Shown: positions 9,415 to 44,632 of the stretch, in pieces | How positions within the stretch are numbered: position 1 is the stretch's first letter | How the letters are laid out: every line of letters begins with the position of its first letter | Virus record (IMG/VR): IMGVR_UViG_3300025818_000031 | Coordinates: 1-44,632 of that record | Direction: 5' to 3' (one strand) | DNA: 44,632 nt | DNA from: a virus | Translations under genes and position numbers: made by a program | Notes under the pieces: generated by a model | Databases searched by the model: none | The model's input: only the letters and a program-made list of their open reading frames with translations | What the model was told of the DNA's origin: nothing

Positions 9415-9477
9415 AGATCTGGGGCTTACATCTACGGCGTGTCCCGGACGTAACGTTGCTTTCGAATGCCCAGATCT
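9415..9477 (-). promoter_or_regulatory. structured 5'-UTR element (class 2, long form)
   Basis: A perfect 9-bp inverted repeat, AGATCTGGG/CCCAGATCT, encloses 45 nt. The first nucleotides after the stem (CATTCG) and the last before it (GTAAG) match the shorter element at 10668-10697, which reads CTGGG-CATCCG...GTAAGT-CCCAG. The inside also carries CGTCCGGGACACG, close to the class 1 sequence. It starts right after the upstream stop codon and ends 22 nt before the next ATG. Confidence 0.5.
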
Positions 9478-10637: not shown

Positions 10638-10667
10638 GGGTCTGTGTTAAGTTGATTGTGTGTTAAA

Positions 10668-10697
10668 CCTGGGACTTACACCTTGCGGATGCCCAGG
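10668..10697 (-). promoter_or_regulatory. 5'-UTR hairpin (class 2, short form)
   Basis: Minus-strand stem CCTGGG/CCCAGG (extendable by A-T) encloses CATCCGCAAGGTGTAAGT. The CATCCGCAA part is the same as in the loop of the 15050 hairpin. It starts next to the upstream stop codon at 10700. Confidence 0.5.
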
Positions 10698-13185: not shown

Positions 13186-13334
13186 CGATAATAATCACGT
13201 TGAGGTTGAATTTCTCCATCCTGGTACTTAATGACCAGTTCTTGAAGGTTCTTACGGTGGTAACAAACCTTCTCGTAGTCTGCTATTGGGATGTAACCCA
13301 ATGCATAGAAGATCTTGTCAATGAATTTGCGCAT
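13182..13334 (-). CDS. hypothetical protein (50 aa)
   Basis: Small basic/aromatic helical protein (MRKFIDKIFYALGYIPIADYEK ... QPQRDYYR). I chose the ATG at 13334, preceded by ACCCAACATCTCAACAG. A longer reading from a TTG at 13364 would run into the hairpin element at 13360. Not recognised. Confidence 0.55.
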   Translation of the reverse strand: MRKFIDKIFYALGYIPIADYEKVCYHRKNLQELVIKYQDGEIQPQRDYYR

Positions 13335-13359
13335 CTGTTGAGATGTTGGGTAATTGGTG

Positions 13360-13412
13360 TGCAAGATATTGAGTCCTGCAGAGAAGGCCCGAAGGCCCTC
13401 AGTGCAGAAGTC
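13360..13412 (-). promoter_or_regulatory. switch-like intergenic element, copy 1
   Basis: In transcription order (minus): segment C GACTTCTGCA, which overlaps the upstream stop; a GGCC-UUCG-GGCC hairpin; segment B TGCAGGACTC; then segment A TCTTGCA. B can pair with C (8 of 10) or with A (6 of 7), not both. This copy has the most mismatches of the four. A ends 25 nt before the next ATG. Confidence 0.45.
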
Positions 13413-13650
13413 AGTCTGCGTGCTGGTACTCCCACTTAAGTAACTCTCGGTTGAGATTTACCTGTCGTTGGAGCACCATGCAGAACGGAATAAGATCCTG
13501 AAACTCACGCATGCCATCCTGCCATTGAAAAAAGATTTCGAGTGCAGCTTGACGCTGTTGCTCAAGATCTTGGTCAATGATCGGGGCATCCCTCCTGGCA
13601 AGCAAGCGGGCATCTTGCGTGAGCAAATATTCGACAGCTTTAGGAGTCAT
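13411..13650 (-). CDS. hypothetical helical protein (79 aa)
   Basis: All-helical, Gln-rich protein (MTPKAVEYLLTQDARLLARRDA ... QRQAALEIFFQWQDGMREFQDLI). Not recognised. ATG at 13650 follows ACCACCAGGATTCAATC, which offers an AGGA at a workable distance, so this may be one of the few Shine-Dalgarno starts. Flanked on both sides by switch-like elements. Confidence 0.6.
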   Translation of the reverse strand: MTPKAVEYLLTQDARLLARRDAPIIDQDLEQQRQAALEIFFQWQDGMREFQDLIPFCMVLQRQVNLNRELLKWEYQHAD

Positions 13651-13686
13651 GATTGAATCCTGGTGGTGTGAATTAAATTGAATGTG

Positions 13687-13743
13687 TGCAGGATATTGAG
13701 TCCTGCAGAAACCCATCGTTGCCGATGGGAAAGTGCAGGAGTC
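13687..13743 (-). promoter_or_regulatory. switch-like intergenic element, copy 2
   Basis: Minus-strand order: C GACTCCTGCA (its GA is part of the upstream TGA stop), hairpin CCCATCG-GCAA-CGATGGG with a GNRA loop followed by TTTC, B TGCAGGACTC, A TCCTGCA. B:A gives 7 perfect pairs and B:C gives 9 of 10. The leader after it is longer here (36 nt). Confidence 0.5.
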
Positions 13744-13939
13744 AGATATAACGCTTGTCCATGCAATAAAATGCGTCACCAACAAACCCTGAAATCATCA
13801 CAAGTTGATGACCAGGCTTGCTGGGACAGGTCTTGATAGTGTGTTGATTCAACATCTTCTGTCCTGCTACAGACAAAAGTATGCCTGAACCAACACCTAA
13901 GACCATTGCAAGACAAGCATGTGTGAAGTGATTGTTCAC
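13742..13939 (-). CDS. small membrane or exported protein (65 aa)
   Basis: The N-terminus (NNHFTHACLAMVLGVGSGILLSVAG) has one hydrophobic segment that could be a signal anchor, then a cysteine-containing domain (KTCPSKPGHQLVMISGFVGDAFYC). GTG at 13939 forms a GTGA overlap with the upstream gene. Possibly periplasmic. Not recognised. Confidence 0.55.
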   Translation of the reverse strand: MNNHFTHACLAMVLGVGSGILLSVAGQKMLNQHTIKTCPSKPGHQLVMISGFVGDAFYCMDKRYI

Positions 13940-14118
13940 TTGATGTTCTCCTTAGGTGTGATAACGAATGCCATATCGTTGGGCATGATGAGTGCAGCTG
14001 TACGAATTCTGTATTCGTTCAGCTTCTCTTTGATGCCATTAACATTGGCATTCTCTACTGCTGCCGCAGTGTTAATCAATACAGAAGCAATGTTCTTCCT
14101 GATGTGTAATGCAGTCAT
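13936..14118 (-). CDS. hypothetical protein (60 aa)
   Basis: Small helical then strand protein (MTALHIRKNIASVLINTAAAVENA ... DMAFVITPKENIK). ATG at 14118 follows GCTCAACACCACACC, a typical leader, 24 nt after element copy 3. Coupled by GTGA to the membrane protein gene. Not recognised. Confidence 0.6.
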   Translation of the reverse strand: MTALHIRKNIASVLINTAAAVENANVNGIKEKLNEYRIRTAALIMPNDMAFVITPKENIK

Positions 14119-14142
14119 GGTGTGGTGTTGAGCTTTGGAATA

Positions 14143-14197
14143 CAGGATGTTGAGTCCTGCAAGAAACCCTGATTGCTCAGGGCTTGATGCAGGACTC
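14143..14197 (-). promoter_or_regulatory. switch-like intergenic element, copy 3 (most regular)
   Basis: Minus-strand order: C GAGTCCTGCA (14197-14188), hairpin CCCTGA-GCAA-TCAGGG with a GNRA loop then TTTC, B TGCAGGACTC (14161-14152), A TCCTG (14147-14143). B pairs perfectly with C (10 bp) or with A (5 bp, loop CTCAACA). C begins 3 nt after the upstream TAG, so a ribosome finishing the upstream gene would cover it. Confidence 0.55.
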
Positions 14198-14200
14198 AAT

Positions 14201-14431
14201 CTAGGTGTTTAGTGCACCCACTTGACAATAGTTATAAAAGTCCACAAGTTCTGTGTGTAGTTCTGACACGCCCTGTGGAACGCCACCTCCAAGAGTACGG
14301 ACGGAACGATCAATCCAATCTGGACTGCCGTCCCATCCATCTACCTGTTGTTCATAGTGAAGTTGAGTAGACTCACCTCCATACCACACAACACGGTCGG
14401 TGGCATTGACTGTGGGTTGATAAATAAACAT
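14201..14431 (-). CDS. hypothetical protein (76 aa)
   Basis: Starts MFIYQPTVNATDRVVWYGGES, contains WDGSPDWIDRSVRTLGGGVPQ, and ends in a helix. Soluble, mildly acidic. Not recognised. The ATG has the leader GCTCAACTCAAC and lies 21 nt after element copy 4. Confidence 0.6.
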   Translation of the reverse strand: MFIYQPTVNATDRVVWYGGESTQLHYEQQVDGWDGSPDWIDRSVRTLGGGVPQGVSELHTELVDFYNYCQVGALNT

Positions 14432-14452
14432 GTTGAGTTGAGCTGGTGGATA

Positions 14453-14501
14453 CAGGATGTTGAGTCCTGTTGAGGGGCCGTGTGGCCCCAGAGCAGGATT
14501 C
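14453..14501 (-). promoter_or_regulatory. switch-like intergenic element, copy 4
   Basis: Minus-strand order: C GAATCCTG overlapping the upstream stop, hairpin GGGGCC-ACAC-GGCCCC, B CAGGACTC, A ATCCTGT. B:A pairs 6 bp (ACAGGA/TCCTGT) around CTCAACA, and B:C pairs 7 of 8. The hairpin sequence differs completely from copies 1-3, but its position is kept. Confidence 0.5.
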
Positions 14502-14697
14502 AGAGTACCAATGTACTGTCCAACTTCATCATCTCATCAAAGGTGAGGAGCTGAATGTCGTTATGTCCCTGGATCCCATCATTTAACTCAGGTGAGTTAT
14601 AAATGTGATCCAATTGTGCAGCTTCTTCCAAAGCTTCTTGGTACTCATTAGCTGAGTATTGACGGTACTGTTGACCGTTAAGAATAATGAAATACAT
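14500..14697 (-). CDS. hypothetical protein (65 aa)
   Basis: Starts MYFIILNGQQYRQYSANEYQE. An N-terminal strand pair is followed by a helix (EALEEAAQLDHIY) and an acidic end. Not recognised. The ATG at 14697 overlaps the stop of the tiny membrane ORF upstream (TGATG), suggesting coupled translation. A GTG one codon earlier is possible. Confidence 0.6.
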   Translation of the reverse strand: MYFIILNGQQYRQYSANEYQEALEEAAQLDHIYNSPELNDGIQGHNDIQLLTFDEMMKLDSTLVL

Positions 14698-14798
14698 CAC
14701 TTACGAAGTTTGTTACGGATTAAATCAACAGCGCAAGGCGCTATAAGAATTAAACCAATGATCGTAATCACAGGAAACTCCTGTTGTGCGGTGCCCAT
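14697..14798 (-). CDS. tiny predicted membrane peptide (33 aa)
   Basis: MGTAQQEF followed by a hydrophobic helix (PVITIIGLILIAPCAVDLI) and a basic end (RNKLRK). The positive-inside rule would place the C-terminus in the cytoplasm. Its stop overlaps the next ATG, as with the 28-aa peptide at 9672-9758. A GGAG lies directly next to the ATG, too close for standard use. Role unknown. Confidence 0.5.
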   Translation of the reverse strand: MGTAQQEFPVITIIGLILIAPCAVDLIRNKLRK

Positions 14799-14815
14799 CT
14801 CCGCTGAGGGCAATA

Positions 14816-14859
14816 CTGAGTGGGGGATTCGATCCCCCGGCATCACGCCTGGTACTCAG
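14816..14859 (-). other. three-way-junction-like inverted repeats after 56-aa gene
   Basis: CTGAGT/ACTCAG encloses a 7-bp hairpin (GGGGGAT-TCG-ATCCCCC) and a small GGC-ATCAC-GCC stem. It contains the stop codon of the gene at 14856-15026. It superficially resembles a tRNA T-arm (ATTCGAT loop), but no acceptor or anticodon arm can be built. It may be a terminator without a U-run or a processing site. Confidence 0.4.
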
Positions 14860-15026
14860 AACGGAATGTCATCCCATGACGCAGGATGCTCTACCTTCTC
14901 CATGTGGATGTTGTCAAGACAATCATCCTCCCAGCGCCATGCACACATACAGGCTTCTTCCTGTGTGGCAAAGAGGCGCTTCATGGTGTAATCACCTTCG
15001 TCAGCTGTAACTAACCAATAAGTCAT
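14856..15026 (-). CDS. hypothetical protein (56 aa)
   Basis: Starts MTYWLVTADEGDYTMKRLFAT and continues through a Cys/Trp-rich helix (EEACMCAWRWEDDCL) to an acidic end. A plausible small alpha/beta protein, not recognised. The ATG has leader GCAATTGACACC and is exactly 23 nt after the class 1 hairpin at 15050. Confidence 0.6.
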   Translation of the reverse strand: MTYWLVTADEGDYTMKRLFATQEEACMCAWRWEDDCLDNIHMEKVEHPASWDDIPF

Positions 15027-15049
15027 GGTGTCAATTGCAATGGAATGTT

Positions 15050-15070
15050 CTGCGTGTTGCGGATGCGCAG
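15050..15070 (-). promoter_or_regulatory. 5'-UTR hairpin (class 1 geometry), upstream of 56-aa gene
   Basis: Minus-strand stem CTGCG/CGCAG, 11-nt loop CATCCGCAACA, preceded by CGGGGG and followed by AACATTCCA. It ends 23 nt before the ATG. Same geometry but different sequence from the GGACA group. Nearly identical to the copy at 15566. Confidence 0.55.
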
Positions 15071-15229
15071 CCCCCGATTAATCCCGACCTCTAACGTCGG
15101 ATATTATGTGGCTATACTTTGCGCCACCGTCTTATATGTAACTACAGCGCCAGAGAGCGCAATTCCCCTCGCATGTGAGGAAATCCTGACATTTCATGGG
15201 GAAAAAACAGGTGTTGAGGGCTACATAAA

Positions 15230-15247
15230 CCCCTGGTTGCCCAGGGG
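15230..15247 (-). terminator. intrinsic terminator with GNRA loop
   Basis: On the minus strand CCCCTGG-GCAA-CCAGGGG is followed by TTTATG, 12 nt after the stop of the 94-aa gene. A TGTTTTTT run follows 20 nt later. The rest of 15027-15229 has no gene. It holds A/T-rich stretches (ACATATAAG, AGTATAGCC, CATAATATCC) that could be promoter parts, and a short GACGTTAGAGGTC repeat. Confidence 0.6.
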
Positions 15248-15259
15248 AAGAGGTAACCG

Positions 15260-15544
15260 TCAGCCTACGCTGTGGATAACGACCAACTTCAGTCCTTCCT
15301 CGTTCTGATAAATGCGCATGCTCAGCTTATCGCTTCGCATGTCACTTACCACTTGGAAGAGATACTGTGGTTGGCATACTTGCCTGACGTCGGAGTAAGG
15401 AAACGCTGCGTGCTGAAACTCCTCGATCGCCTGGTACGCATACTCCACATACTGGTGGAATAGCTCGGCATTCTCAGATGTAGGACGCTCGCCTACCTTA
15501 CGACGCCAGTCGTACTGCCAACGCTTGGTCTTCTGTGCTTGCAT
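15260..15544 (-). CDS. hypothetical protein (94 aa), first of the main leftward series
   Basis: Starts MQAQKTKRWQYDWRRKVGERP and contains a helix (FHQYVEYAYQAIEEFQHAAF). It ends with paired strands (KLSMRIYQNEEGLKLVVIHSVG). Basic N-terminus. Not recognised. It lies next to the early intergenic region, so it would be transcribed first from any leftward promoter there. The ATG follows a class 1 hairpin by 21 nt. Confidence 0.6.
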   Translation of the reverse strand: MQAQKTKRWQYDWRRKVGERPTSENAELFHQYVEYAYQAIEEFQHAAFPYSDVRQVCQPQYLFQVVSDMRSDKLSMRIYQNEEGLKLVVIHSVG

Positions 15545-15565
15545 TGAACTAAACGCGATGGTACT

Positions 15566-15586
15566 CTGCGTGTTACGGATGCGCAG
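15566..15586 (-). promoter_or_regulatory. 5'-UTR hairpin (class 1 geometry), upstream of 94-aa gene
   Basis: Minus-strand stem CTGCG/CGCAG with 11-nt loop CATCCGTAACA, preceded by CGGGGG. One loop base differs from the 15050 copy. It ends 21 nt before the ATG. Confidence 0.55.
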
Positions 15587-15768
15587 CCCCCGTTCAATTA
15601 CTTACCTACCCCGCTATTCTTTTTTTTCTTCCCGTATTTCACTTCGCGAGGGGTGTTGTAGAAGCGTCAGGTAATTTTTTACCCTTTTTTGACCTATATA
15701 GGGCGCTTTTGTTGAAGTAAAACCGAAACAGTGTATGTATTTATATAGTTTTACCCAAGTTTTGATAC
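15587..15768. other. A/T-rich early intergenic region, presumed leftward promoter zone
   Basis: No gene is visible. The stretch contains a poly-T run (15619-15626), GGTAA-TTTT-TTACC, the palindrome CCTATATAGG, and several TATATA/TATATAA boxes. On the plus strand TTGAAG is followed 16 nt later by TATGTA. Promoters for the leftward genes, and possibly an origin, would fit here, but no single site is convincing by eye. Confidence 0.35.
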
Positions 15769-26001: not shown

Positions 26002-26023
26002 GTATTCAGTAATCATTGAATAC
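26002..26023 (+). terminator. terminator-like hairpin before terminase gene
   Basis: GTATTCA/TGAATAC, 7 bp, 8-nt loop, followed by TTCTTGTTGT. It ends 8 nt before the terminase GTG, so it may act on translation of the terminase rather than as a terminator. Confidence 0.4.
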
Positions 26024-31764: not shown

Positions 31765-32588
31765 AGCTAGTTCAGATCCTGGTAGGTATGACCTTTCAAG
31801 ATTTGGTAAATAGCTCCGTGATTGCAATCAAACTTTTCGGCAATCTTTCGATACGACAGACCAGCCTCTTTTAAAGCTTTGATTTGAATCACGTCATCCG
31901 AAGAAAACTTCCTTAAAGACTTCTTCGGTTTTCCTTTACTGGCAAAACCATTGTTCTTGTAACAACCCGTTGCCCAGGCCCTTGTTAAATTTTCTTGTTT
32001 GGTAACGATCTCAAGATTTTCAAGTCGATTATTTCTCTTGTCATTATCTTTGTGATCAACTTGCAGGGAAAAGTTACTGGTTCCATGAGAACGCAGATCT
32101 AATCCCAAAAAAGCAACAGCCATCAAGACATGAAGATGAAAACGTTTTCTCTTTCCATTAACAAGAACTGAAATACGGTCATAAACACTGGTGGAACGAA
32201 TAAGGATCTCTTGAAAATATTCTTGATTATCGGGATCAAGTCGTTTTTCAAAAGCTTTTCCCTCTTCCGTTAAGTAAAGATTACCAAATCCAGGAACAAG
32301 CTTTGGTTCCATGTTGTTCATAAACAAGTTTCCAAAGCATAACATACCTCAACTGAACGCTCAACGTTGTCACCCCACCGAGCAATCGATGGGTGCAAAC
32401 CGGATGAATTCAGGGAAGCCCTAACGTAAAGACGAGGGTAATCCTGAGCCAAGCCAATCAAGCGTGGTTGGAAGGTGCAGAGACTACTGGGTGTAACACG
32501 ACCTTGTTACGTAATACCAGATTTAGCGTCCGGCATCCCACAGGGATGAAGAGATAGTCCACCCCTCTAAGAGACTAGAGACCAGGAG
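31765..32588 (+). ncRNA. group I intron in the major capsid gene, carrying an antisense HNH gene
   Basis: The catalytic core is clear in the 3' part: P/P4 region GAATTCAGGGAAGCCC (32405), Q element AATCCTGAGCCAAGCC (32440), R element GGTGCAGAGACTA (32474-32486), P8 CATCCC-ACA-GGGATG (32534-32548) and S element AAGAGATAGTCC (32549-32560). P7 pairs GACTA with TAGTC. P9-like CTCTA/TAGAG follows. The intron ends in G. The 5' part, before the core, is occupied by an HNH endonuclease gene on the opposite strand. Boundaries are inferred from reading frame and may be off by a few bases. Confidence 0.85.
31767..32321 (-). CDS. HNH homing endonuclease, antisense within the capsid-gene intron
   Basis: The HNH core is LQVDHKDNDKRNNRLENLEIVTKQENLTRAW (about residues 85-115), the HNH_3 type of intron endonucleases. 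The C-terminal module has a basic linker (KGKPKKSLRKFSSDDVIQIK) and an HTH (GLSYRKIAEKFDCNHGAIYQILKGHTYQ). It should cut intronless capsid genes and spread the intron. Its TAG stop lies within the first bases of the intron. The start is uncertain: ATG at 32321 (used here), 32345 or 32312. It is transcribed against all flanking late genes, so it needs its own promoter, and none is obvious. Confidence 0.85.
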   Translation of the reverse strand: MNNMEPKLVPGFGNLYLTEEGKAFEKRLDPDNQEYFQEILIRSTSVYDRISVLVNGKRKRFHLHVLMAVAFLGLDLRSHGTSNFSLQVDHKDNDKRNNRLENLEIVTKQENLTRAWATGCYKNNGFASKGKPKKSLRKFSSDDVIQIKALKEAGLSYRKIAEKFDCNHGAIYQILKGHTYQDLN

Positions 32589-33740
32589 AACGATTTTCCA
32601 AAAATCTTAGGTGCGGAACTTTATCGTCCCCACCCTGCTTACATTGCCGAGATGGCCGTCGAGCCAGTGGTCGTTCATGACTTCACTCGTCAGCCTGGCC
32701 AAACAGTTCAGTTAGACCGCTATAAGTTCTGGGGGACCCCTGGCACCAAGGACAGCCGTGAGCGTATTGCCGATCAAACAATCGGTACCGCCAACAGCCG
32801 TAACATCACAAAGGAAAAGGTGTTGGTGGTGCTTAAAGAGTACACCGGCCCTGCTGATCCGGGTGATCCGACCCAGCCTAGCACCTTTAAGATTGCCCGC
32901 GAGACCCTGATCACGGCTCAGCGCCTGCTCTTGGACTCTGGCAACCTTAATATGTTCCACCAGTCGATCGGTAGCCTGACGCTGCTCGACGACTATCGCC
33001 GTTGGCGCGACCGGGTGTTCCTTGACGAACTCTCGAAAGCCGAAGCCAATGGTGCCGCTTCCACCACCCAAGGTGGTTACTACTTTGCTGGTGGTAAGAC
33101 CAAGGATTCTTCCGGTCGTATTAAGTACGAAACCGCTGAGTACACTGCCGAAGTTCAGCAGTTCCAGGTTCGCACTGACCTGCTGACCATTGTTAAGGAC
33201 CTGCGTAAGCGCAACGTCCCGACATTCGCCGATGGTCTGTATCGCTGCATCTGCGATCCTACCTTCATGATGCACCTGCGTCGTGACCCAGACTTCCGCG
33301 AGATCGCTCGTTACGCTGGTAATCCTGGTCAAGGCATGTACATGGGCAACCCCATGATGCCTAACAACGCCAGCTTCTACATGGGTCCCCAGGCTGGCCA
33401 AGCCTACTTCCTGGGTGGCGAGCCTGTCATGCCTACCGGTGTGCAGTTTGAAGGCGTCAAGTTCTTCGAGTCCACCAACTTCCCGACCAAGAACGTCACT
33501 GCTTCGTTTGATGGCGGCTCCACTTATGCTTCCAAGGAAGTTGCCCAAGGTTACTTTTTCGGCCCGCAGTCTGTGGGTGTTGGTATCGGTGGTCCGAATG
33601 CTCAGGTCCTCATCAACAACAACGACGATTTCAGCCGTTTCATCATTCTTATTTGGCAACTTTACGCTGGTTTTGAAATTCTGAACAAGGATTTTGTCAC
33701 GACCGCGTTTAGCTTTGTGCAGGATGACGGCACCGTCTGA
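32589..33740 (+). CDS. major capsid protein, main exon
   Basis: The open frame starts before the first ATG (32652). It reads NDFPKILGAELYRPHPAYIAEMAVEPVVVHDF directly from the intron's 3' end, showing that the N-terminus comes from an upstream exon. The full product is about 387 aa. Features consistent with an abundant capsid protein are its length, position after portal and assembly genes, strong preference for C-ending codons unlike most neighbours, and a strand-rich C-terminus (AQVLINNNDDFSRFIILIWQLY). The family is assigned by context. A possible internal start is ATG 32652. Confidence 0.8.
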   Translation, partial: NDFPKILGAELYRPHPAYIAEMAVEPVVVHDFTRQPGQTVQLDRYKFWGTPGTKDSRERIADQTIGTANSRNITKEKVLVVLKEYTGPADPGDPTQPSTFKIARETLITAQRLLLDSGNLNMFHQSIGSLTLLDDYRRWRDRVFLDELSKAEANGAASTTQGGYYFAGGKTKDSSGRIKYETAEYTAEVQQFQVRTDLLTIVKDLRKRNVPTFADGLYRCICDPTFMMHLRRDPDFREIARYAGNPGQGMYMGNPMMPNNASFYMGPQAGQAYFLGGEPVMPTGVQFEGVKFFESTNFPTKNVTASFDGGSTYASKEVAQGYFFGPQSVGVGIGGPNAQVLINNNDDFSRFIILIWQLYAGFEILNKDFVTTAFSFVQDDGTV

Positions 33741-40468: not shown

Positions 40469-43237
<2,769 letters not shown>

Positions 43238-43240
43238 CTT

Positions 43241-43963
43241 ATGACTGCCTGGACACTTGTTGCCGTTGGCGCAGCTTCTACAGCAAACGGCGGAAACCTT
43301 GCCATCACACTTCCGGCAGGTGGTCAGAAGGGGGATTTATATGTAGCTGTTATTGCGTACAGGAGTAACGTTGGTTTTACAGCACCAGCCGATTGGGCAA
43401 TCCACGAAACTCAAAACACAGGCAATACCAGTACAACAGCTAGCACGTCAATTGGATCTGGTTTAATTGCATCAATTGTTCGCGGCGATGCAGCACCGGC
43501 TAACACATTTACAAGAACAGGTGGTGATATTGGGCTTGGCCGTATCTTGATTTACAGGGCAAGCAACGGCACACCCAGATTTATGGCGTCTTCTTCCAGT
43601 ACTGCAGCAGCAAACGCAACAGCTCTTTCAACTGCAGCTATCAACGTAACAAGTAAAGACACGTTGATCGTTGCCGGATTCTGCGGTGCAGATAACACTA
43701 CAGTTTCTGCATTTGACGCCACGGATCCAAGTGTAGCAAGTGGCGCAACAAACACAACAACACAACCAACTGCGAATACCTGGTACGAACGTGCCGATTC
43801 AAATACCAACCTTGGTGCTGACACAACGCTTGGCATCGCTGATGGCGTCAAAGCAACCACTGGATCTACAGGCAGCATTCTTTGTACAGCTTCTGTATCT
43901 TCGCGTCATGTCATGGTTGCAGCTGCTTTCTACGTGCCAAAACGCTATATTGCGGTGACATGA
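43241..43963 (+). CDS. putative tail-associated beta-rich protein (240 aa)
   Basis: Ala/Thr/Ser-rich strand protein (MTAWTLVAVGAASTANGGNLA, QKGDLYVAVIAYRSNVGFTAP, TLIVAGFCGADNTTVSAFDAT, HVMVAAAFYVP). The pattern resembles small virion surface domains found in phage and environmental fibre-associated proteins. It lies 3 nt after the fibre gene, so it is probably a partner or accessory of the fibre. Not assigned to a family. Confidence 0.6.
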   Translation: MTAWTLVAVGAASTANGGNLAITLPAGGQKGDLYVAVIAYRSNVGFTAPADWAIHETQNTGNTSTTASTSIGSGLIASIVRGDAAPANTFTRTGGDIGLGRILIYRASNGTPRFMASSSSTAAANATALSTAAINVTSKDTLIVAGFCGADNTTVSAFDATDPSVASGATNTTTQPTANTWYERADSNTNLGADTTLGIADGVKATTGSTGSILCTASVSSRHVMVAAAFYVPKRYIAVT

Positions 43964-43972
43964 TCACCGTAG

Positions 43973-44632
43973 ATGGCAAAACCTCGTCTTCATTTGATTG
44001 GTATTTTCCATACCAAATCACAACTTAAATATTCGCACTGTGCTTTTACTGGCAAAGCATTGCGCTTTCCGCGCATGATGCAAGCACAGGGCTACGAAGT
44101 AATTGAATATTCCAATGGCACCAGCGAGGCAGGGGCATCGGTACATATACCAATTATCTCCGATACAGAATTTGACGACCTCTACAACAAGCGAAAAGCA
44201 ACCGATTTCTATGGTGATGATGCCACCATCGGTAGCGATGGCCATCGTCTCTTTGAGGACCGTCTGATCGTCCACCTGAAGGGCAACTTAGAACCAGAGG
44301 ACATCATCTGTCATCCCTTTGGCCACGCTCATCAAGTATTGATGGATCACTTCCCAGATCATCAGCACGTTGAAACAGGGATTGGTTATCCAACCTTGAT
44401 GCCGAAAAGCTACAGGATATTCGAGTCATACGCCTGGATGCACTACCACCAGGGCAAAGAAAACCGCAGTGGACGTAACTACGAGTGGGTGATTCCTAAT
44501 TACTTCGACATCACGGAGTGGAAACCTAAATACAAAGCAGGTGATTACCTGGCATTCCTTGGGCGTATCTGCAGCCAAAAGGGAATGGACACAATCAAAG
44601 CACTTGCAGACCACAGCCCCTGGCCAATCGTG
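43973..44632 (+). CDS. glycosyltransferase, GT4-like, 3' end cut by window edge
   Basis: The first 220 residues are visible, without a stop. The N-terminal part reads KPRLHLIGIFHTKSQLKYSHCAFTGKALRFPRMM, then EVIEYSNGTSEAGA, a Rossmann-like pattern. After a linker the sequence YLAFLGRICSQKGMDTIKALAD is the start of a GT-B C-terminal domain as in GT4 enzymes. Phage-borne enzymes of this type may modify DNA, virion proteins or host surface sugars. Its place right after the fibre genes leaves virion modification or surface alteration open. The donor-binding site lies beyond the window. Confidence 0.75.
   Translation, partial: MAKPRLHLIGIFHTKSQLKYSHCAFTGKALRFPRMMQAQGYEVIEYSNGTSEAGASVHIPIISDTEFDDLYNKRKATDFYGDDATIGSDGHRLFEDRLIVHLKGNLEPEDIICHPFGHAHQVLMDHFPDHQHVETGIGYPTLMPKSYRIFESYAWMHYHQGKENRSGRNYEWVIPNYFDITEWKPKYKAGDYLAFLGRICSQKGMDTIKALADHSPWPIV

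Follow-up and report, generated by a model that had tools for sequence, protein, structure and literature searches.

Why does the same short block recur between successive small genes of one virus, each time beside sequence that could fold with it in two mutually exclusive ways? The question is raised by the window, a linear IMG/VR virus record of 44,632 bp. Because the 762-aa virion protein encoded here shares 74% identity with one from Synechococcus phage S-EIV1, the sole relative found among GenBank phages, we took the window as part of the genome of an S-EIV1-like freshwater cyanophage. The element is located in a run of small genes that all point leftward, so it must be read on the minus strand throughout, and comparison with PHROGs gave no confident function for any of the small leftward genes that carry it. 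Elsewhere in the window, a group I intron (Rfam RF00028, E 3.3e-21) lies at 32340-32581 on the plus strand, immediately ahead of the gene for the major head protein (32652-33740).

Copies of the element in the window

The window contains the block CAGGACTCAAYATCYTG, which holds segments B and A, at four places only: 13362-13378, 13689-13705, 14143-14159 and 14453-14469 (0.13 matches expected by chance; four were reached in 0 of 100 shuffles). On the 5' side of each block stands an inner hairpin whose sequence differs between copies, and further 5' a segment C complementary to the block's first half, the order of parts on the minus strand being stop codon/C, inner hairpin, B, A, leader and next AUG. 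The four copies that the first-pass annotation had placed here are all present and all transcribed leftward (minus strand). Coordinates below refer to that strand, E values to the covariance model R1 (next section), and the inner hairpins of copies 1 to 4 were assigned from sequence and fold.

Copy 1 (13357-13413, E 1.3e-17) lies between a 79-aa gene (13650-13411) and a 50-aa gene starting at 13334. The UGA of its segment C, UGACUUCUGCA (13403-13413), is the stop codon of the upstream gene; the inner hairpin GAGGGCC-UUCG-GGCCUUC (13383-13400) follows, then segment B, UGCAGGACUCA (13370-13380), complementary to both C and A, and segment A, UCUUGC (13361-13366), which makes 6/6 pairs with B, one of them G-U. 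Between a 65-aa gene (13939-13742) and the 79-aa gene starting at 13650, copy 2 (13684-13744, E 1e-18) has C UGACUCCUGCA (13734-13744), again with UGA as the stop codon, the inner hairpin CCCAUCG-GCAA-CGAUGGG (13712-13729) with UUUC next, B at 13697-13707 and A, UCCUGC, at 13688-13693. Copy 3 (14138-14198, E 7.9e-18) separates a 76-aa gene (14431-14201) from a 60-aa gene starting at 14118, and its C, UUGAGUCCUGCA (14188-14199), is directly 3' of a UAG stop; the B:C helix, described earlier as a perfect 10 bp, is in fact an inverted repeat of 12 perfect pairs, which is exceptional among the copies. Its inner hairpin is AAGCCCUGA-GCAA-UCAGGGUUU (14164-14185), with B at 14151-14161 and A, UCCUGU, at 14142-14147. 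Copy 4 (14448-14502, E 1.7e-16), between a 65-aa gene (14697-14500) and the 76-aa gene starting at 14431, consists of C UGAAUCCUG (14494-14502, UGA being the stop codon), the inner hairpin GGGGCC-ACAC-GGCCCC (14474-14489) without a U-run after it, B ACAGGACUCA (14461-14470) and A, UCCUGU (14452-14457).

The number four holds for A-bearing copies, and a fifth copy, which has no A, is found at 15201-15262 (E 1.7e-11), with the next gene starting at 15026. It is made up of C UGACGGUUAC (15253-15262), a terminator-like inner hairpin CCCCUGG-GCAA-CCAGGGG (15230-15247) and B GUAGCCCUCA (15215-15224), and its C:B helix is compensated despite the missing A. The tetraloops listed for the four copies (GCAA, GCAA, UUCG, ACAC) are the right ones, but their order by coordinate is UUCG, GCAA, GCAA, ACAC. 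R1 also gave a weak match at 26017 (E 0.024), which lies about where the terminase gene begins and was taken as chance.

Related copies in other phages

In a pattern scan, 52 stretches of IMG/VR contained the B-A block, and almost all of them show the same plan; R1 (C:B plus inner hairpin), built from 24 copies, matched the five copies in the window and 48 of 49 records. The copy in S-EIV1 (KJ410740, 42668-42717, minus strand, E 5.8e-6) was detected by the covariance model only; BLAST of the region or of one element against annotated phages gave no useful match. Loci were also fetched via three flanking small proteins, so that these copies were not chosen by their B-A sequence, and the element was again common in the 64 protein-fetched loci from contigs outside the first set. 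The collection came to 157 distinct copies from dozens of IMG/VR contigs, plus one in the isolate S-EIV1, and since many of the contigs are related, these counts are not counts of independent events. A bacterial origin was rejected: in 257 Gb of bacterial and archaeal genomes, the conserved block matched at just 10 scattered sites, approximately the chance number. Rfam 15 has no family matching at the element with gathering cut-offs and only chance-level miRNA, snoRNA and SgrS matches at relaxed E-values, and literature searches (open-licence papers) found no description of it.

Covariation of the three segments

All six B:A pairs are standard in the 133 A-bearing copies (798/798 cells), and because the register of A was set by best complementarity, the foreign-B control that offsets this choice of A positions matters: with A taken from a copy having a different B, only 21% of copies were fully standard. 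The B/A pairs seen are GCAGGA/UCCUGC, ACAGGA/UCCUGU, CCAGGA/UCCUGG, GCAGAC/GUCUGC, GUAGUC/GGCUAC, GCAGGG/CCCUGC, GCAGGC/GCCUGC, GCAGUC/GACUGC and GCAGAU/AUCUGC, with G-C, G-U, A-U and C-G pairs at B position 1 and A-U, C-G, G-C and U-A among those at position 6. C changes to match B and A in most classes; in the CCAGGA class A is compensated (UCCUGG) while C is not at that pair, which provides independent evidence for B:A. The loop-trimmed alignment A9, used instead of a MAFFT alignment of the B-A part alone, which was gapped at its ends, was 100% paired at B:A versus 79% when shuffled, with a covariation score of 0.65 versus 0.20. The B:A cells contain 34 G-U and 0 A-C combinations, implying that the selected molecule is the coding-strand RNA, and this asymmetry rules out a DNA-level repeat or mobile palindrome as the sole explanation.

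In two samples, of 108 and 104 distinct rows, the C:B helix and the inner helix were paired in 91.3% and 90.5% of cells, respectively, the alignments having been fitted to that structure. Two-sided changes were counted in 347 and 340 cells, compared with ~90 and ~83 after shuffling (0 of 500 shuffles as high), and a shift of one base halved the pairing. The mean C:B pairing score was 13.5, versus 7.1 ± 0.34 when the C of other copies was used. The structure has an outer helix of 8-11 pairs, then an internal loop, then an inner helix of variable length. Helix position 4 is mismatched in 119 of 121 scorable copies (98%); as the make-up of the two columns already predicts ~97% mismatch, this is a fixed feature and not a covarying one, and it keeps the C:B helix weak. 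The inner hairpin varies freely in sequence, and widely in length, with its pairing kept. That hairpin sequences differ was thus correctly noted at the outset, but the loops do not keep one type, only 79 of 157 copies having a UNCG or GNRA loop, and the UUUC said to follow the hairpin often is not general.

A is missing from 24 of the 157 copies, all with a B of the xxAGCC/AGCU type, although this group is slightly over-counted because one or two members (e.g. a GCAGCC copy with GGCUGC downstream) have a possible A. C:B is still kept in them, so it has a function of its own. The proposal that B is complementary to C and to A in mutually exclusive ways is upheld by compensating changes in related phages, where B:C and B:A both covary. 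Nor is complementarity lost freely: in one flanking gene family, C:B and B:A are kept at 49 of 50 gene ends, a figure that we use as a supporting count only, since the loose detector behind it also responds at ~30% of random positions. The element is almost certainly a two-state RNA structure that was previously undescribed, and the comparison shows, at the level of sequence, both states to be under selection as coding-strand RNA. The window's four A-bearing copies are nearly identical, and successive junctions carry different B/A/C codes in some other genomes (L100, L102, L103, L120, L123).

Placement relative to genes and predicted stabilities

In 122 of 149 copies C opens with the UGA that ends the upstream gene, and every one of the 149 has a stop codon between -13 and +2 relative to C, so the earlier suggestion that C sits on the upstream stop, where a terminating ribosome could cover it, is well founded, and a choice of state by ribosome position is possible. 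Downstream, the next AUG of A-bearing copies follows A at a median of 24 nt (92% within 12-30 nt, n=130), while in A-less copies the median distance to it is 204 nt, and other conserved leader structures often intervene. This difference suggests that C:B serves the gene end and B:A the start of the next gene. The leader between A and the AUG contains 6% G and is unstructured in both states, and only 12 of 128 downstream genes have a Shine-Dalgarno-like motif.

ViennaRNA predicts that the C:B state is favoured by 3.4 ± 2.6 kcal/mol in the uncut RNA. With the RNA cut before B, the C:B complex would gain a median of only 2.4 kcal/mol over two separate hairpins, which is probably not enough to keep the two molecules joined at the concentrations found in cells, so refolding should win. 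For the GCAGGGC and S-EIV1 classes, the prediction is a balance between the states, or a preference for B:A, even in the uncut RNA.

Other conserved leader motifs

Several further RNA-like motifs were observed on the minus strand of the window and of S-EIV1 (locus L087), and in other loci. A leader hairpin, GGGGCUGCG-CAUCYGYAACA-CGCAG, stands before two genes at 15049-15075 and 15565-15591 of the window and again in S-EIV1 (~44067-44091), and it looks like the 5'-terminal hairpin of primary transcripts. Approximately 150-250 nt after A-less copies (L093, L097, L100, L102, L116, L119, L199, L267) there is a conserved motif, CGUCAAGCUGGACGUUAAACGUAGC, a possible H-type pseudoknot that is often preceded by a CCCGAC..GUCGGGAUUA hairpin. 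The sequence CAGCGGARAUGGGYACCGCACAACAGGAGNNUCCUGUG precedes a small gene at ~14760-14810 of the window, at ~43700-43750 of S-EIV1 and in L298; a repeated motif CCUGGGCAUCC...GGUGUAAGUCCCAGG, possibly a three-way junction RNA, is at ~10660-10695 and 9415-9475 of the window and ~41437-41480 and 40722-40785 of S-EIV1. Neither of these has an Rfam match. The motif GAUCCGUCAAAGCGGGU...GUGCAAACC occurs twice in S-EIV1 leaders (~43745-43790 and 43455-43500), and CCGGGGGAUCGAAUCCCCC (window 14820-14850) resembles a tRNA T arm, though the Rfam scan calls no tRNA.

Possible roles of the two states

To explain the element in the leftward early operons of S-EIV1-like freshwater cyanophages, we tentatively favour a process-and-refold junction. 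The sequences show the two states that it would use. In state 1, C, starting at the upstream stop codon, pairs with B around the variable inner hairpin; in state 2, B pairs with A to form a hairpin with a stem of 6 bp or more, located ~24 nt ahead of the next AUG. As we infer the mechanism, a host endonuclease would cut a long polycistronic early mRNA at a point 3' of the inner hairpin and 5' of B, and it could be either an RNase III-like enzyme, acting on the internally looped C:B duplex, or RNase E, acting in the U-rich loop. The upstream mRNA would retain the inner hairpin as its 3' end, whereas B, freed from C, would refold with A into a 5'-terminal hairpin on the downstream mRNA that could block 5'-monophosphate-dependent decay by RNase J and RNase E, the G-poor leader staying open once B:A forms. 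In this way C:B would be the state that serves one gene at its 3' end, and B:A the state that serves the following gene at its 5' end. Cyanobacteria possess RNase III, RNase E and RNase J, the last of which degrades RNAs with non-triphosphorylated 5' ends (PMC10989914), mRNA half-lives can be ~1 min (PMC7406221), and a marine cyanophage raises host RNase E during infection (PMC9692554). The long intercistronic hairpin with an internal loop that is typical of RNase III sites is present in the element. Against processing, the widely varying length of the inner hairpin gives no fixed RNase III geometry, the overlap of C with the stop codon is not required and fits a ribosome model better, and the GCAGGGC and S-EIV1 classes are not predicted to favour C:B before cleavage.

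Such a ribosome model would be a translation-coupled switch, in which a ribosome at the UGA masks C and B:A forms, while an untranslated upstream gene leaves C:B, with a change in downstream translation or stability, so that downstream output would depend on translation of the gene before. The position of the stop codons supports it, as do the small margin by which C:B is normally more stable and the length of C (11-13 nt), which is about what a ribosome covers beyond its A site. A ribosome-shielded RNase E site beside a stop codon is also known in T4 gene 32 (PMC3014915). We consider this switch a serious rival but somewhat unlikely, because no output element is seen (few Shine-Dalgarno motifs, no U-run after A, a leader unstructured in both states) and C:B is kept in the 24 A-less copies, mostly without a nearby downstream gene. 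The attenuator proposed in the first-pass annotation meets the same difficulty: two exclusive helices share one strand, as in leader attenuators, but a terminator or hidden start signal is lacking, the AUG lying beyond A in an open leader, and the absence of a U-run after A and of a terminator-like site at copies 1-4, together with the rarity of Shine-Dalgarno motifs, leaves no output for an attenuator-type switch visible. An intrinsic terminator or attenuator in which the inner hairpin and U-rich loop stop transcription, modulated by C:B and B:A, is improbable. Many copies do have a GC-rich inner hairpin with UUUUCU or UUUC, at least five U are found in the 8 nt after the hairpin in 48% of the 157 copies, and copy 5 was flagged in the intrinsic-terminator scan. 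The same scan did not flag copies 1-4, however, a GC-rich hairpin directly followed by a U-run is not the rule overall, some classes have almost no U there (CCAGGA class 0/8; GGUCCCCUCAACAGG type), and the U-tract lies 5' of B, so that B and A would be unmade when termination occurred.

The element could instead be a repeated palindrome serving mainly to shuffle small early genes, like the promoter early stem-loop (PeSL) cassettes that Arbiol et al. 2010 and Comeau et al. 2014 reportedly described in T4-like phages. The same B/A/C classes occur at many junctions, one junction type carries several classes, ~40 junction combinations exist among 24 protein families, and the repeats cluster within an operon whose small genes have no confident PHROG function. 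Yet shuffling does not need B:A, let alone its complete pairing with G-U and no A-C in 133 copies, and codes often differ within one genome, which reduces homology for recombination. Such a cassette is distinctly improbable as the main role and is disfavoured as the sole one by the RNA-level covariation; gene shuffling may be a by-product. Binding of a phage or host protein to the B:A hairpin, repressing or activating all downstream genes together, is very improbable. It would suit the constant hairpin geometry and fixed distance from each AUG in one operon, but stems change freely and loops of 3 to 14 nt differ in sequence, which disfavours a sequence-specific site and leaves only shape to be recognised, and C:B pairing would be left unexplained.

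Comparison with known systems

Closest to the element in kind are PeSL cassettes, T7 RNase III sites, T4 gene 32 processing and leader attenuators; each has some features in common with it, but none is shown to match it in every defining feature. Like PeSL cassettes, which are reported to be repeated intergenic stem-loops with variable stems and stable tetraloops among small early genes of unknown function, the element is a repeated stem-loop between reassorting small accessory genes. Unlike them, it has no early sigma-70-type promoter joined to the stem-loop (no promoter-like site was found on the minus strand, the coding strand, within 13357-14502), it has two alternative covarying helices, and its C overlaps a stop codon. 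RNase III processing sites lie between T7 early genes, and the element shares with them a two-helix intercistronic hairpin with an internal loop that would leave the upstream mRNA a 3' hairpin; the element differs in the variable length of its inner helix and in strand A, which would give the downstream product its own 5' hairpin, and cleavage here is proposed. The mRNA of T4 gene 32 is processed by RNase E near its start and stop, a process that ribosomes hinder and that is conserved in related phages (PMC3014915). The cleavage proposed here would likewise be close to a translation stop, but T4 gene 32 is a single gene with no repeated two-state hairpin. Leader attenuators (trp, erm) also have a middle strand common to two exclusive pairings and one strand that a ribosome can cover, whereas the element is intergenic, present in many copies and without a terminator or sequestered start codon as output.

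The process-and-refold junction could, we think with some doubt, represent a new class of RNA device, in which one strand is part of a 3'-end or processing helix and then, after cleavage, of the next message's 5' hairpin, possibly gated by the terminating ribosome and repeated from junction to junction across a phage lineage, with codes specific to each junction in some genomes. Few phage RNA elements give such clean two-fold evidence, with three segments changing together in more than 100 copies, and the proof of a bistable RNA from sequence alone, long difficult, becomes directly testable with this element. It might also provide interchangeable, ready-made gene junctions for expression work in cyanobacteria. 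If the proposal is true, one cyanophage early transcript would become a set of separately stable messages, despite fast decay and a 5'-3' exonuclease in the host.
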